A stretch of DNA of 62,723 nt from Gammaproteobacteria bacterium. Lineage in GTDB: Bacteria > Pseudomonadota > Gammaproteobacteria > Steroidobacterales > Steroidobacteraceae. Made by a program: the position numbers and the translations under genes. The stretch lies in the NCBI GenBank assembly GCA_025350055.1, contig JANXYK010000004.1, forward strand, positions 1-62,723, read 5' to 3'. The notes beneath the pieces are model-generated. The model saw only the letters and a list, made by a program, of their open reading frames with translations. It was not told the DNA's origin and did not search any database. Positions within the stretch are counted from its first letter, which is position 1, and every line of letters begins with the position of its first letter. This document shows, piece by piece, positions 43,605 through 47,881 of the stretch.

Positions 43605-44105
43605 TCAATGCACCGTACCGTCGATAACCCAGAGGTCAGCGGACGATACCTTCGCCGTGAGATCGGCGACGCGGCCGACGCCCGGCACGATGAGGTCGGG
43701 TGCGAACTCACAGAGGGGCCGCAGCACGAAACTGCGCTCGGCGATTCCCGGATGCGGCAAGCTCAACGCGGCACTGCTGCGCCGCTCGTTGCCGTAGACC
43801 AGCAGATCAAGATCAATCACGCGCGGCCCCCAGCGTGCGTGCGCGGGCGCCCGCCCGAGCGAATCCTCGAGCGCACGCAATGCGGCCAGCAAGGCATCGG
43901 CATCTAGCTGCGTGAGCAGACCCGCGGCGGCATTGCAGAAATCGGCTTGTGCCACCGGGCCCATGGGTCGGGAGCCGTAAAGTGACGACTGGTACACGAG
44001 ACGCGTGGAGGGCAAGGTTGCCAGCGCGGCAAATGCCTGGCGCAGCTGTTGCGGCGGATCCTGCAGGTTGCTGCCAAGGCCCACGTAAGCCGGCATCCAC
44101 TTCAT
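43605..44105 (-). CDS. folK: 6-hydroxymethyl-7,8-dihydropterin pyrophosphokinase
   Basis: Folate-pathway enzyme. The start at 44105 forms an ATGA overlap with the pcnB stop; upstream codons belong to pcnB in another frame. The 166-residue protein has AYVGLGSNLQDPPQQLRQAF, SRPMGPVAQADFCNAAAGLL, LEDSLGR, WGPRVIDLDLLVYG and LPHPGIAERSFVLRPLCEF, with the metal-binding D-x-D in IDLDLL. Position next to pcnB is typical. Confidence 0.95.
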   Translation of the reverse strand: MKWMPAYVGLGSNLQDPPQQLRQAFAALATLPSTRLVYQSSLYGSRPMGPVAQADFCNAAAGLLTQLDADALLAALRALEDSLGRAPAHARWGPRVIDLDLLVYGNERRSSAALSLPHPGIAERSFVLRPLCEFAPDLIVPGVGRVADLTAKVSSADLWVIDGTVH

Positions 44106-45652
44106 CCGCCGCCGCTGCGCGAGCGCCGGCGTCGGCGACGACGCGGCGTGCCGGTGGATTCGCCACCGCCTGCGTTGCCGGCCGTGCCTTGCGGCATCGC
44201 GGCCACCATCTGTTCGCGCTCTTCGGGGCTGACAGCCTGCAGTGTGTTCCACCACTGGGCGATTTCCGCGGGCGCCAGGCCGATCGCGGCGCGCAGCGCC
44301 AGCAGATCGAAAGCGGCCCGAAAGCGCGGCTGCTCGAGCAGCCGCAACGAGCGCCGCCCGCGTTGACCTTCAAGTCGCGACTGCAGTGCGTACATCTCGC
44401 GCACCCCGAGTGCGATGCGCCGCGGAATCGACACCCGCTGCTGCGCATCGCGCAGTGCCCGATCACAGGCCTCGAGTATCGCCTGCGGTTCGTGCCAGCG
44501 TTGCTGCGGCAAGGTCTCGATCGCCGCGGCAATCGGTCCGTACAGCAGCAGCGCGAACAGGAAGGTGGGCGTGACGGGTTTGTCTTCGGCGACGCGTGAA
44601 TCGGTGTTGCGCAGCCCCTGCACCAGCAGTGCCTCGACCAGGCTCCCGGGATGCTGCAGCAGATACTGCTCGGCGGCCGGAAACAACACGCCGAAGAGCC
44701 CGCGCGCGCGCAGCACGCGGAAGCTCTCGACACCGTGGCCGCCAAGGAACAGTTTTGCGGTCTCATCGAACAGGCGTGCGGGCGGAACGCCCGCCAGCAA
44801 CTGGCGCAGTTGCGGAATCGGCGCCGAGCCTTCGGCGTCGAGCGAAAAACCCAGCTTGGCCTCGAAGCGCGCGGCGCGCAGCATGCGCACCGGGTCTTCG
44901 CGATAGCGCGTCTCCACATCGCCGATCAGGCGCAGGCGCTTGGCGTGGATGTCGGCCAGGCCATCGACGTAATCCCAGATCGAGAAATCGGCAATGTTGT
45001 AGTACAGCGCGTTGACGGTGAAATCGCGTCGCCACACGTCCTCATCGATGGTGCCGTACACATTGTCGCGCAGCAGCCGGCCGTGATCGTCCTGCACGCG
45101 GTGTACGCTGGCGGCGCCGGCATTCGCCGCGGCGCTGTTCAGCGCGTTGCCGCGCGCGTCTTCTGCTGCGCTGTCCGCTGCGTCGTCGGCATCGTCAGCA
45201 TCGTCGGCATCATCGTCTGACTCATCGTCGAGTTCATCGTCATCGGCTTCGGCGGCCAGCAGTTCAGCCTCGTCTTCCTCGCGCGCGGGCACCGGGTCTT
45301 CACTCGGCGGCGGCGCGCTCGCGGCGCGGAACGTGGCAACCTCGATGACATCGCGCCCGTAGACCACATGCGCCAGCCGGAAGCGGCGCCCAACCAGGCG
45401 GCAATTGCGGAACAGCCGGCGCACCTCGTCGGGCAGCGCGTCGGTGGCGACGTCGAAATCCTTGGGATGGCGGCCGATGATCAGGTCGCGCACGCAGCCG
45501 CCCACCAGGAAGGCCTGAAAACCGGCTTCCTTGAGGCGGTAGAGCACACGCAGCGCGTTGGGGGAAATATCGGACCGCGAAACCGGATGTTCGGCGCGCG
45601 GAATGACCCGTGGTGCGCCATGCGCCACGGCAACTGGCAGAGGTTCGTTCAA
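44102..45652 (-). CDS. pcnB: Poly(A) polymerase I with an acidic insertion
   Basis: Adds poly(A) tails to RNAs and so promotes their decay. I use the TTG at 45652 (516 residues), because the longer frame runs through the tRNA promoter and tRNA on the other strand. The catalytic site is FLVGGCVRDLIIGRHPKDFD, with D-x-D. A second conserved block is LLRDNVYGTIDEDVWRRDFT, then RLIGDVETRYREDPVRMLRA. Between the two blocks lies an insertion of about 40 residues rich in Asp/Glu/Ala (45158-45280). The C-terminus is Arg-rich (RRRRRRRSRSGGG). The overlap with folK is ATGA. Confidence 0.92.
   Translation of the reverse strand: MNEPLPVAVAHGAPRVIPRAEHPVSRSDISPNALRVLYRLKEAGFQAFLVGGCVRDLIIGRHPKDFDVATDALPDEVRRLFRNCRLVGRRFRLAHVVYGRDVIEVATFRAASAPPPSEDPVPAREEDEAELLAAEADDDELDDESDDDADDADDADDAADSAAEDARGNALNSAAANAGAASVHRVQDDHGRLLRDNVYGTIDEDVWRRDFTVNALYYNIADFSIWDYVDGLADIHAKRLRLIGDVETRYREDPVRMLRAARFEAKLGFSLDAEGSAPIPQLRQLLAGVPPARLFDETAKLFLGGHGVESFRVLRARGLFGVLFPAAEQYLLQHPGSLVEALLVQGLRNTDSRVAEDKPVTPTFLFALLLYGPIAAAIETLPQQRWHEPQAILEACDRALRDAQQRVSIPRRIALGVREMYALQSRLEGQRGRRSLRLLEQPRFRAAFDLLALRAAIGLAPAEIAQWWNTLQAVSPEEREQMVAAMPQGTAGNAGGGESTGTPRRRRRRRSRSGGG
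45158..45280 (-). repeat. pcnB: Low-complexity acidic repeat in pcnB
   Basis: The minus strand encodes about 41 residues composed almost entirely of Asp, Glu and Ala, with DDADDADDADD-type repetition from degenerate GAC/GAT-GCN units. It falls in the loop after the VIEVATFR strand, where E. coli PcnB has a shorter polar loop, so it should be tolerated but exposed. Confidence 0.75.
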
Positions 45653-45668
45653 ATGGGCCCTGAATGAC

Positions 45669-45696
45669 TTGAGCAATCGGAGAGGCCGCCTATAAT
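45669..45696 (+). promoter_or_regulatory. Sigma70 promoter of tRNA-Glu
   Basis: TTGAGC (45669-45674) and a perfect TATAAT (45691-45696) are separated by 16 bp. The GC-rich sequence after the -10 box (CCGCGCC) looks like the discriminator of stringently controlled stable-RNA promoters. Transcription would start near 45703 and the mature tRNA begins at 45730. Confidence 0.8.
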
Positions 45697-45729
45697 ACCG
45701 CGCCTTTTCGCCTCGCCATCCGAAGATTA

Positions 45730-45805
45730 GCTCCCTTCGTCTAGAGGCCCAGGACACGGCCCTCTCAAGGCTGGAACACGAGTTCGAATCTCGTAGGGAG
45801 CGCCA
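45730..45805 (+). tRNA. tRNA-Glu (anticodon CTC), CCA encoded
   Basis: A 76-nt cloverleaf. The acceptor arms GCTCCCT/AGGGAGC pair fully. The D-arm resembles that of other bacterial tRNA-Glu (TCTAGAGGCCCAGGACAC). The anticodon loop is CTCTCAA, giving CTC, and the T-arm loop is GTTCGAATC. Discriminator G and CCA are at 45802-45805. It is transcribed opposite to pcnB. Confidence 0.96.
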
Positions 45806-46130: not shown

Positions 46131-46159
46131 CTGGCATTTGGCGCAAATGTAGCTACAAT
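46131..46159 (+). promoter_or_regulatory. Promoter with embedded palindrome for the antitoxin-nucleotidyltransferase operon
   Basis: CTGGCA (46131-46136) and TACAAT (46154-46159) are 17 bp apart. Between and over them is the perfect inverted repeat CATTTG-GCG-CAAATG (46135-46149), a natural autorepression operator for a ribbon-helix-helix antitoxin. The expected start point, about 7 nt after the -10 box, falls at or just before the ATG at 46168, and no ribosome site is visible, so the mRNA may be leaderless. Confidence 0.55.
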
Positions 46160-46167
46160 GTGGCGTC

Positions 46168-46494
46168 ATGAAGGACGAAGTGATTCGAGCCCGCATTGAT
46201 GCTGACCTCAAGGCGCGCGCCTCCGAGGTACTAGCAGCTTGTGGCCTCGAGGTATCAGACGCCCTGCGTCTGTTCTTGAGGCAGGTCGTCGCGAAAAACG
46301 GGATTCCCTTCCCTATCCAGGGCGCCGCCCCGGGCCTTTCACGCGCACAACTCGCCCAGCTCAAGCACGAGTCGCAGAAGCGCGACCGACGAATCGCCGC
46401 CTCTGAAGACGTTAGCGGCGGAGAGATGTTCCTAATCCGCCCCGAGAAGGCGCGGGCCGCGCGCATTCGGTGGCCTAACGCGAGCCTCGCGTGA
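46168..46494 (+). CDS. RelB/DinJ-family antitoxin-like protein
   Basis: A 108-residue protein whose first ~50 residues match the RelB/DinJ ribbon-helix-helix DNA-binding domain (EVIRARIDADLKARASEVLA, VSDALRLFLRQVVAKNGIPF). The rest is a charged, probably flexible tail (SQKRDRRIAASEDVSGGEMF) that should wrap the toxin. RelB usually precedes an RNase toxin of the RelE/YafQ type; here the overlapping downstream gene (GTGA) encodes a nucleotidyltransferase-like protein. Codon use and base composition are less GC-rich than the neighbours, suggesting acquisition. Autorepression through the upstream palindrome is likely. Confidence 0.85.
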   Translation: MKDEVIRARIDADLKARASEVLAACGLEVSDALRLFLRQVVAKNGIPFPIQGAAPGLSRAQLAQLKHESQKRDRRIAASEDVSGGEMFLIRPEKARAARIRWPNASLA

Positions 46495-47291
46495 CCGCCG
46501 TAGAGCTACGCGAAGTAGCTCTGACACCCGACGAAATCACTCAAATCCTGACCGTCTGCGGCTCGCGGGCGCTCCTCATCGGCGGACAGTCTCTCGCCTT
46601 CTGGGCCCTGCGCTACCAAGTGCGCCCAGCAGGGGTGCTTTCCGAGTCAGTCACGATGGACATTGATTTCGTGGGTACCGCGAACGTTGCGGCCCTACTC
46701 AAGGAACGACTTGGAGGCCATTGGCAACTTCACGCCGCAAGTCTTGATGAGGTGAGTGGGCAGACCGCGAAGGTCTATGTACAGCTGCCAGACAATGGCT
46801 TGAAGCAGGTCGATTTCTTGTCCGGGATAGTCGGCCTCGACACCCAAACCGCAAAACGTCGTGCAGTTGAGGTGGAAGCCGATCCAGGCGTTTGGGTTAG
46901 CGTTCTACACCCGCTCGACGTCCTCGAGAGCCGGCTGCAGAACCTGCGGCACCTGGCGACCAAGCAAAACGAAGTCGGTGTTGCACAGGCGCGCCTCGCC
47001 GTAGAGGTAGTATGCGCATTTCTCGAAGAACGGCTGACCGAAGGAGACACAAAACCAGTATTTCAGGCGATTAAGCGCATCAAGCGACTTGTGCTCAATC
47101 CAGGTCTTGCGCGCACTGCTTTCGCATACGACATTGATGTGCTTGCCGCCGTACCAGTTGAACGAATCGCAAAGGAAGATTTTCAGGAGCGGTTCTGGCC
47201 GGATGTACTATCAAAACTTAAGGAAAAACGCGACCGGTACGCGGCGAATGGCGCAAGACACCTCCTAATAGGGCAACCTCTGATGCGATAG
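46491..47291 (+). CDS. Minimal nucleotidyltransferase, putative toxin of a toxin-antitoxin pair
   Basis: A 266-residue protein starting with GTG that overlaps the antitoxin stop. The nucleotidyltransferase fold is visible: GG-x-S in IGGQSLAFWALRY (Gly31, Gly32, Ser34), the metal-binding D-x-D in VTMDIDFVG (Asp57, Asp59), and the third Asp in LKQVDFLSG (Asp108). A helical C-terminal half follows. This resembles AbiEii/MenT-type toxins and related DNA polymerase beta-like proteins, some of which inactivate tRNAs by adding nucleotides to the 3' end. Toxicity and target are not known from sequence. Alternatively it is a metabolic or resistance nucleotidyltransferase, which the antitoxin coupling makes less likely. 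Confidence 0.75.
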   Translation: MTAVELREVALTPDEITQILTVCGSRALLIGGQSLAFWALRYQVRPAGVLSESVTMDIDFVGTANVAALLKERLGGHWQLHAASLDEVSGQTAKVYVQLPDNGLKQVDFLSGIVGLDTQTAKRRAVEVEADPGVWVSVLHPLDVLESRLQNLRHLATKQNEVGVAQARLAVEVVCAFLEERLTEGDTKPVFQAIKRIKRLVLNPGLARTAFAYDIDVLAAVPVERIAKEDFQERFWPDVLSKLKEKRDRYAANGARHLLIGQPLMR

Positions 47292-47332
47292 CGCATCCCG
47301 CTAGGACTAGTATCACCAGCAAAATTATCGCT

Positions 47333-47623
47333 AAGGCCCGCTTCTGACTTTAGTACGAGGCGTCTATTCTGGAAGACAAGAACGGCATTCGAACCGTCAC
47401 GATATGCCCATGACTAGGTAACTGTTGAATATCCGGCCACTTCGGATCGGCTCGTTTCCTCACCTGGTGCGCCAATAGCTGACACAGCATCTTCATACGA
47501 CATACTCGTTTGAAGTTGCTTGTATTGACTGGCGGTTAGAACAGGATGTCGCCGTGCTGCGGCTACTTCGTCCTGCCGCCTTAGGGCATCTGTTTGCGCT
47601 TCCAGCTGATGCGCTGCTATCAA
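47333..47623 (-). pseudogene. Broken SmpA/OmlA-like (DUF3862-type) gene with in-frame TAG
   Basis: The minus strand encodes LTASQYKQLQTSMSYEDAVS followed by IGAPGEETSRSEVAGYSTVT, then TAG (47414-47416). In the same frame it continues SWAYRDGSNAVLVFQNRRLV and LKSEAGL. The whole reads like the BLIP-like SmpA/OmlA repeat of small envelope proteins, where a Tyr or similar residue would sit at the stop. After AGL the family would normally end; here the frame runs on into unrelated codons. The 5' end also lacks a signal peptide or good start. A TTG at 47623 is the only available start. Confidence 0.55.
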
Positions 47624-47639
47624 CGCCTCGCTTGCGGAA

Positions 47640-47807
47640 TTATCGCGGAATTTCCCTACGATTGAATTTGCACTTCATGCCACACCACCACTGCGGCCCC
47701 GTCGGACAATACGCCAACCCGATGCACTTGACGCCTTCGCGGCCACGCGCGCACGCTGTGCCGACGGGGTACCCCAATGCAACAATCCAGATTCGCAGGA
47801 TGCTCAC
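47640..47807 (-). other. Short Cys-rich open frame, uncertain
   Basis: A GTG-initiated 55-codon frame. It begins with a hydrophobic stretch (LRIWIVALGYPVG) and then has five cysteines within about 28 residues (GVKCIGLAYCPTGPQWWCGM). It lies directly upstream of the broken SmpA/OmlA-like frame and could be its original 5' part after a frameshift, or a small independent peptide, or chance. No ribosome site is clear. Confidence 0.2.
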
Positions 47808-47881
47808 TTAGCAGCTCTTCAAATTATTTCTTGCAATCGCTTGTTCGAAACATAGTGCGACCCACCGTCACCAATTAAGTC

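Follow-up and report, generated by a model that had tools for sequence, protein, structure and literature searches.

A RelB-type antitoxin gene overlapping a MenT-like nucleotidyltransferase gene: a probable toxin–antitoxin operon with a candidate portable antidote

The 62,723-nucleotide stretch of contig JANXYK010000004.1 analysed here (hereafter the window), from a gammaproteobacterium of the family Steroidobacteraceae, carries an operon of two overlapping genes, the first encoding a RelB/DinJ-type antitoxin and the second a nucleotidyltransferase (NT) with an active site that reads as intact. This pair is probably an autoregulated, type II-like toxin–antitoxin operon resembling MenAT1, with a MenT-like NT as its toxin. 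A wider proposal, which we regard as evenly balanced, is that the NT belongs to a new toxin family neutralised by a portable tail of some 45–50 residues, which has travelled whole between DNA-binding domains of the RelB, Xre, ParD-like and perhaps Phd types, is free on plasmids and is once fused to the toxin; since the operator would be replaced along with the domain, regulation and neutralisation would evolve as separate modules, and neutralisation may use antitoxin-induced auto-phosphorylation of an invariant Thr/Ser.

The operon and its two proteins

The upstream protein had been assigned to the RelB/DinJ ribbon-helix-helix family in a first-pass annotation of this DNA, and two models above their cut-offs bear this out, PF04221 (RelB; E 1.1e-13, 51.3 bits, cut-off 22.4) and TIGR02384 (RelB_DinJ; 58.1 bits, cut-off 45.65); among the PHROGs it matched phrog_2737, of unknown function. 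It was the only match of a RelB search of its own genome, made with a model that was silent in all 14 control genomes and is therefore of unproven sensitivity. Its AlphaFold2 (AF2) model is of low confidence (pLDDT 59.4) and places helices at residues 12–24, 29–42, 59–79 and 92–97, so that the tail appears as the helix 59–79 followed by a low-confidence end with the short helix 92–97 and the residues R-A-A-R-I-R-W-P. The two genes overlap by 4 nucleotides (GTGA), the GTG start of the NT lying within this overlap with the antitoxin stop, and a sigma-70-like promoter ends 8 nucleotides before the antitoxin ATG. The palindrome TGTAGCTACA, predicted to be an autoregulatory operator, occurs once in the window (expected 0.03).

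The downstream gene had been described as encoding a minimal nucleotidyltransferase with GG-x-S, D-x-D and a third Asp. All three motifs were found (G31-G32-Q33-S34, D57-I58-D59 and D108), and among 40 family members, which include one near-duplicate pair (L059/L063; L numbers denote loci and G numbers genomes), GGQ, W38, T/S55, D57, D59, P141 and N151 were invariant and D108 was kept in 39. The word “minimal” has to be given up, the AF2 model (pLDDT 93) having a large C-terminal helical part. When this model was used in a structure search, the first PDB match was MenT1, a tRNA-modifying toxin, and the combination of an NT fold with GG and T/S-x-D-x-D by which AbiEii and MenT are recognised is found in the window NT.

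By sequence the NT fell below every Pfam and NCBIfam family cut-off, no metabolic family being matched; the PHROGs gave no match, and the PDB sequences no true one (a row at E 0.0033 was without any single passing stretch). The AbiEii/DUF1814 model PF08843 matched none of 28 NT members at E 0.1, and this model picks up AbiEii in 31 of the 60 related genomes searched. For the window NT, PADLOC listed AbiEii in a weak row (E 0.02), and a profile comparison with AbiEii aligned 29 columns at the catalytic motif (E 0.0012, probability 19%; reversed control E 0.57). By Pfam, the NT is a family apart from AbiEii/DUF1814. Weak rows for DUF4769, FANCA_arcN and PRK10790 in the Pfam and NCBIfam scans, for NTP_transf_8 (4 of 28 NT members) and for four single-member families were not used. 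The window’s own genome also has AbiEii-family (DUF1814) matches, at G000:C29:49144-49806 and G000:C74:26859-27047.

Partner genes across the loci

Directly upstream of the NT, an antitoxin-like open reading frame was present in all 28 loci kept in alignment A1. Pfam assigned 12 of these partners to RelB, 11 to Phd_YefM, three to helix-turn-helix (HTH, Xre) and one to ParD_like; the 28th is a Phd-type partner truncated by the contig end, which brings Phd/YefM to 12. Two fragments (L011, L031), a false match within a long membrane protein (L013), a locus on the contig of L014 (L002) and fragments without a kept locus from the family- and order-level searches were excluded from these counts. The first-pass annotation had held its proposal of a RelB–NT module open to refutation if the homologues occurred mostly without a RelB-like gene, or if the NT matched a metabolic family; some antitoxin-like gene was found at every kept locus, RelB at 12, no metabolic family was matched, and chance adjacency was rejected, the pairing being conserved. 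On sequence grounds, the RelB–NT pairing is real and conserved, with RelB as one partner type among others, and the conserved overlapping or near-overlapping pair that marks type II toxin–antitoxin systems is seen at 28 of 28 loci.

Twelve plasmid loci were inspected (11 of the 18 matching plasmid records and one from another search). A partner of 60–75 residues was present in nine (hereafter solo partners), a ParD-like one in L057 and an in-frame NT fusion in L055; L066 has no partner, looks degenerate and is an exception outside the 28 kept NTs, and the NT reading frame of L064 is without the usual start codon early on. The nine solo partners and the 68-residue partner of L065 matched no Pfam family (a DUF7194 row at E 0.06 for one solo partner, far below cut-off, was left unused). 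The fusion (L055, 2213-3202, on a Rhizobium leguminosarum plasmid) joins a segment resembling the solo antitoxins in frame to the NT N-terminus and is a candidate single-chain toxin–antitoxin.

The shared C-terminal tail

A profile built from 12 RelB-type tails alone recognised the Xre partner L006 with 41.0 bits (best shuffle 7.0), the ParD-like L057 with 30.1 bits (5.0) and the solo L056 with 28.4 bits (7.7), and was marginal for L054 (4.8 against 3.7) and L061 (8.6 against 8.2). In pairwise local alignment, L006 and L056 scored 97 (best of 1000 shuffles 47); the window antitoxin scored 63 with L006, which was reached by 1 of 1000 shuffles and is weaker than the match of L006 with L056. A second tail group is formed by solo partners together with Xre L032 (15.7 bits, against 7.1 for the best of 500 shuffles), L012 (9.5 against 9.1) and the segment that is fused to the NT in L055 (25.2 against 8.3). 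Across relatives the same enzyme keeps different partners, some with a similar tail, which suggests an antidote that resides in the tail and a DNA-binding part that can be exchanged.

As a control for specificity, a profile of RelB plus tail was searched in 217 genomes of the same bacterial family and gave 27 matches in 27 genomes. Thirteen of the 15 whole-model matches lay upstream of an NT (one off the contig end; 11 of the 13 are the profile’s own rows), the other two being in G144, upstream of a 27-residue NT start only, and in G189, an orphan. Eight ribbon-helix-helix matches were without the full tail: five stood upstream of YafQ-like open reading frames and none upstream of an NT, and for the remaining three, two of which are short RelB fragments, neither YafQ nor NT was found. 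Four of the YafQ-like frames were scanned by Pfam (PF15738; three passed the cut-off, and one, with a broken frame, fell below it), and the fifth (L115) was called by a profile of three of the others. The Fisher test of tail against NT (13/0 versus 0/4, before L115 was added) gave p 0.0004; without the profile’s own rows p was 0.03 (3/0, the NT remnant counted) or 0.07 (2/0, the remnant left out). As far as these comparisons go, the tail is the part of the antitoxin that goes with the NT. The four tail-only matches were the Xre partners L119 (= L006) and L120 and two short open reading frames, L117 (in G159) and L118 (in G157), each with no NT within up to ~1.5 kb on either side, which are possible orphan antitoxins.

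Partner exchange and promoter repeats

A quick maximum-likelihood tree of 38 NTs, in which starred placements with long branches need caution, has the Xre-paired L006 as the starred sister of the RelB-paired L024, nested in the RelB clade, and needs at least seven changes of partner state. Among the RelB-type promoters reached via the toxin, 11 of 12 have an exact TGTAGCTACA; none of the three RelB-type loci reached via the antitoxin has it, and these carry variants with one or two mismatches. By eye, the 11 Phd-type promoters read share the element TT[GA]GCTAAA, in most cases within an inverted repeat, and YafQ-type RelB loci have other promoter repeats. The promoter-proximal inverted repeat, as read from these promoters, varies with partner type.

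Proposed mechanism and alternatives

The RelB-type protein would dimerise via its ribbon-helix-helix, and the dimer would bind TGTAGCTACA over the -10 box and repress the operon. By analogy with MenAT1 and MenAT3, the tail (helix 59–79 and the R-A-A-R-I-R-W-P end) would cover the active site of the NT and block it, and might in addition lead the NT to phosphorylate its own T55, as happens to T39 of MenT1 with MenA1; once the antitoxin was lost the toxin would be free, and tRNA 3′ ends are its proposed target. In the course of evolution the tail would have been joined to several DNA-binding domains (RelB, Xre, ParD-like and, less certainly, Phd), would stand alone in some loci and would once have been attached to the toxin itself.

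Several results weigh against this picture. Antibiotic NTs were near-tied with MenT1 in the structure search. With the RelB-tail profile, five of the eight Phd partners tested (of 12) scored above all 200 shuffles, at no more than 11.4 bits, and L030, L012, L032 and six of the nine solo partners did not rise above their shuffles; the window antitoxin scored 35 with L056, a weaker result that 37 of 1000 shuffles reached; and between the two tail groups homology was not demonstrated by sequence. The small likeness of Phd-type partners, L030 and most solo partners to the RelB tail speaks for a toxin–antitoxin module in which each partner makes unrelated neutralising contacts, or the DNA-binding domain touches the toxin, tail likeness being confined to some branches; it is in keeping with this that the MenA antitoxins fall, by the description in PMC11375011, into three independent families. 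Against it stand the strong tail matches of the Xre partner L006, the ParD-like L057 and the solo L056, and the tailless RelBs that accompany YafQ-like toxins, and we consider it unlikely.

Less probable still is a drug- or metabolite-modifying NT under an upstream repressor, which would be no toxin–antitoxin pair at all. The partners are RelB, Phd, ParD-like and HTH proteins, three of these being classical antitoxin families, and their genes overlap the NT gene or are separated from it by a short junction; the ten solo partners without a recognised domain are hardly ordinary repressors; moreover, antitoxin-like genes without an NT exist (L107, L117, L118), whereas none of the 28 kept NTs is without a partner, L066 lying outside that set. 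A reversal of roles, with the NT as antidote and its partner as toxin, has a precedent in HEPN–MNT, where MNT proteins act as antitoxins (PMC7641770), but is highly improbable and was rejected: no HEPN match was found among the 28 upstream partners, the antitoxin-like partners (RelB, Phd, Xre, ParD-like, peptides of 60–75 residues) match no toxin family, and it is again partners without NTs that exist, and not NTs without partners among the 28.

Comparison with known systems

The MenAT1-like operon proposed here shares with MenAT1 itself (Rv0078B-Rv0078A, Mycobacterium tuberculosis) the NT fold, as top structural match, T/S-x-D and a small upstream antitoxin, and T39/D41 of MenT1 (PMC11375011) correspond by motif to T55/D57 of the window NT. 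MenA1 is described as a protein of 68 residues with no apparent DNA-binding domain, of which an overexpressed 32-residue helix suffices to neutralise (PMC10435456). The likeness of the solo partners to it is one of size and of the absence of a recognised domain, and the tail model of the window antitoxin resembles its long-helix-then-short-helix form (PMC10435456). It differs in that none of the 28 NT members here matches PF08843 and that the partner here is RelB, Phd, Xre or ParD-like at many loci.

AbiE and MenAT3-4 (AbiEi–AbiEii, COG5340–DUF1814) likewise combine an NT toxin and an antitoxin, with similarity at the catalytic motif, but an AbiEi/COG5340-type partner was found by Pfam at 0 of 28 loci and the NT family is distinct. 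With DinJ–YafQ and RelBE the operon has in common the RelB/DinJ ribbon-helix-helix antitoxin and a promoter-proximal palindrome; the toxin here is an NT instead of YafQ or RelE, and the RelB has an extra tail. Xress–MNTss of Streptococcus suis pairs an Xre-type antitoxin with an NT toxin and is autoregulated (PMC8406773), but MNTss is described as toxic in the periplasm and was modelled on a kanamycin NT (PMC8406773). Swapping of antitoxin partners and domains is a known principle, as in ribbon-helix-helix, AbrB and PHD antitoxins with PIN toxins, PanA and NetFlax (PMC2701414, PMC8832971, PMC10440598); the terms nucleotidyl, NTase and MenT are absent from the available text of PMC10440598, and nucleotidyl from that of PMC8832971. 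Precedents are known for parts of the proposal, namely MenA1 without a DNA-binding domain, the Xre–MNT pair of S. suis and antitoxin domain swapping in general. In the open-licence literature, no RelB- or Phd-type antitoxin with an NT toxin was found among the titles and abstract starts of the matches listed; what appears to be new is the pairing of RelB and Phd with an NT toxin, and a tail common to several DNA-binding folds.

Distribution and genomic setting

The NT was matched in 12 of 98 relatives, in 30 of 217 genomes of the same family (some as fragments; G037 is spurious) and, with alignment A1, in 15 of 296 genomes of the order; the single matches in the class (1 of 369) and the phylum (1 of 398) are each the window’s own genome. 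Plasmids gave 18 matches in 72,556 records and phages none in 50,697; viral contigs gave none with the single protein and one locus, L065, with alignment A1. Within the genus, only a fragment was found in the 14 remaining genomes, in G010, and a 79% identical copy is found in another genus (G124), a patchy spread as seen for horizontally moving modules. At L065 (22-2625) the pair has tRNA-Phe on one side and on the other an integrase-like gene (Phage_integrase, E 0.00043, below cut-off), which hints at a tRNA-integrating carrier. The pair of L064, on a Sphingobium plasmid, adjoins genes annotated as Mov34, ThiF adenylyltransferase and CBASS cGAMP synthase, a defence locus.

The suggestion that the window module is mobile and sits after a tRNA gene in a less GC-rich stretch holds in part. 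The patchy spread and the plasmid homologues support mobility, and a tRNA-Glu(CTC) gene does lie upstream, 362 nucleotides from the antitoxin gene. Such a neighbour is not typical, since only L065 among 18 other loci has one (mostly 1.5 kb flanks were scanned, and two loci come from one contig). A search for another copy of the tRNA-Glu 3′ end, as would be expected at an integration site, found none, and integration at the tRNA was not used as an argument; an empty-site test by the flanking gene was uninformative, the downstream gene being present in 1 of 15 genus genomes, the window’s own. GC content falls from 65.4% for the window to 56.8% in the NT gene, 55.5% in the 5′ flank and 53.0% in the 3′ flank, but the antitoxin gene itself is at 63.6%. 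Downstream of the NT, 47292-47880 is low in GC (53%), without a recognised gene and perhaps the remains of a decayed insert. On the other side, the poly(A) polymerase reading frame as listed, 44102-45757(-), overlaps the tRNA-Glu gene with its 5′ end, and its true start is probably further in. The features of the operon are collected in Table 1.

Table 1. Positions in the window of the operon, its proposed control elements, the motif codons and the neighbouring tRNA gene
Feature	Position	Strand	Basis
RelB/DinJ-family antitoxin gene, 108 residues	46168..46494	+	Pfam and NCBIfam matches
NT, toxin candidate, 266 residues, GTG start	46491..47291	+	motifs and AF2 fold
Sigma-70-like promoter, CTGGCA-17-TACAAT	46131..46159	+	consensus match only; 3 in region against a shuffle mean of 0.7
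Palindrome TGTAGCTACA, probable (predicted) operator of autoregulation; overlaps the -10 box	46148..46157		promoter comparison
Coding region of C-terminal tail, antitoxin residues 57-108; proposed neutralising segment	46336..46491	+	tail profile comparisons
G31-G32-Q33 codons	46581..46589	+	40/40 members
T55-x-D57-x-D59, catalytic Asp pair with Thr/Ser two residues ahead of D57	46653..46667	+	40/40 members
D108, third acidic residue	46812..46814	+	39 Asp, 1 Glu (n=40)
tRNA-Glu(CTC), neighbour; context, not shown as part of the module	45730..45805	+	

Implications

The MenT-like NT toxins would be extended by a family that lies below all Pfam and NCBIfam cut-offs, and a RelB gene alone does not imply a RelE or YafQ toxin. 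The natural series, in which the tail is carried on varied DNA-binding folds, stands alone or is fused to the toxin, would allow a direct test of which part of the antitoxin neutralises, and the same series may serve to test whether helix-induced auto-phosphorylation is general.
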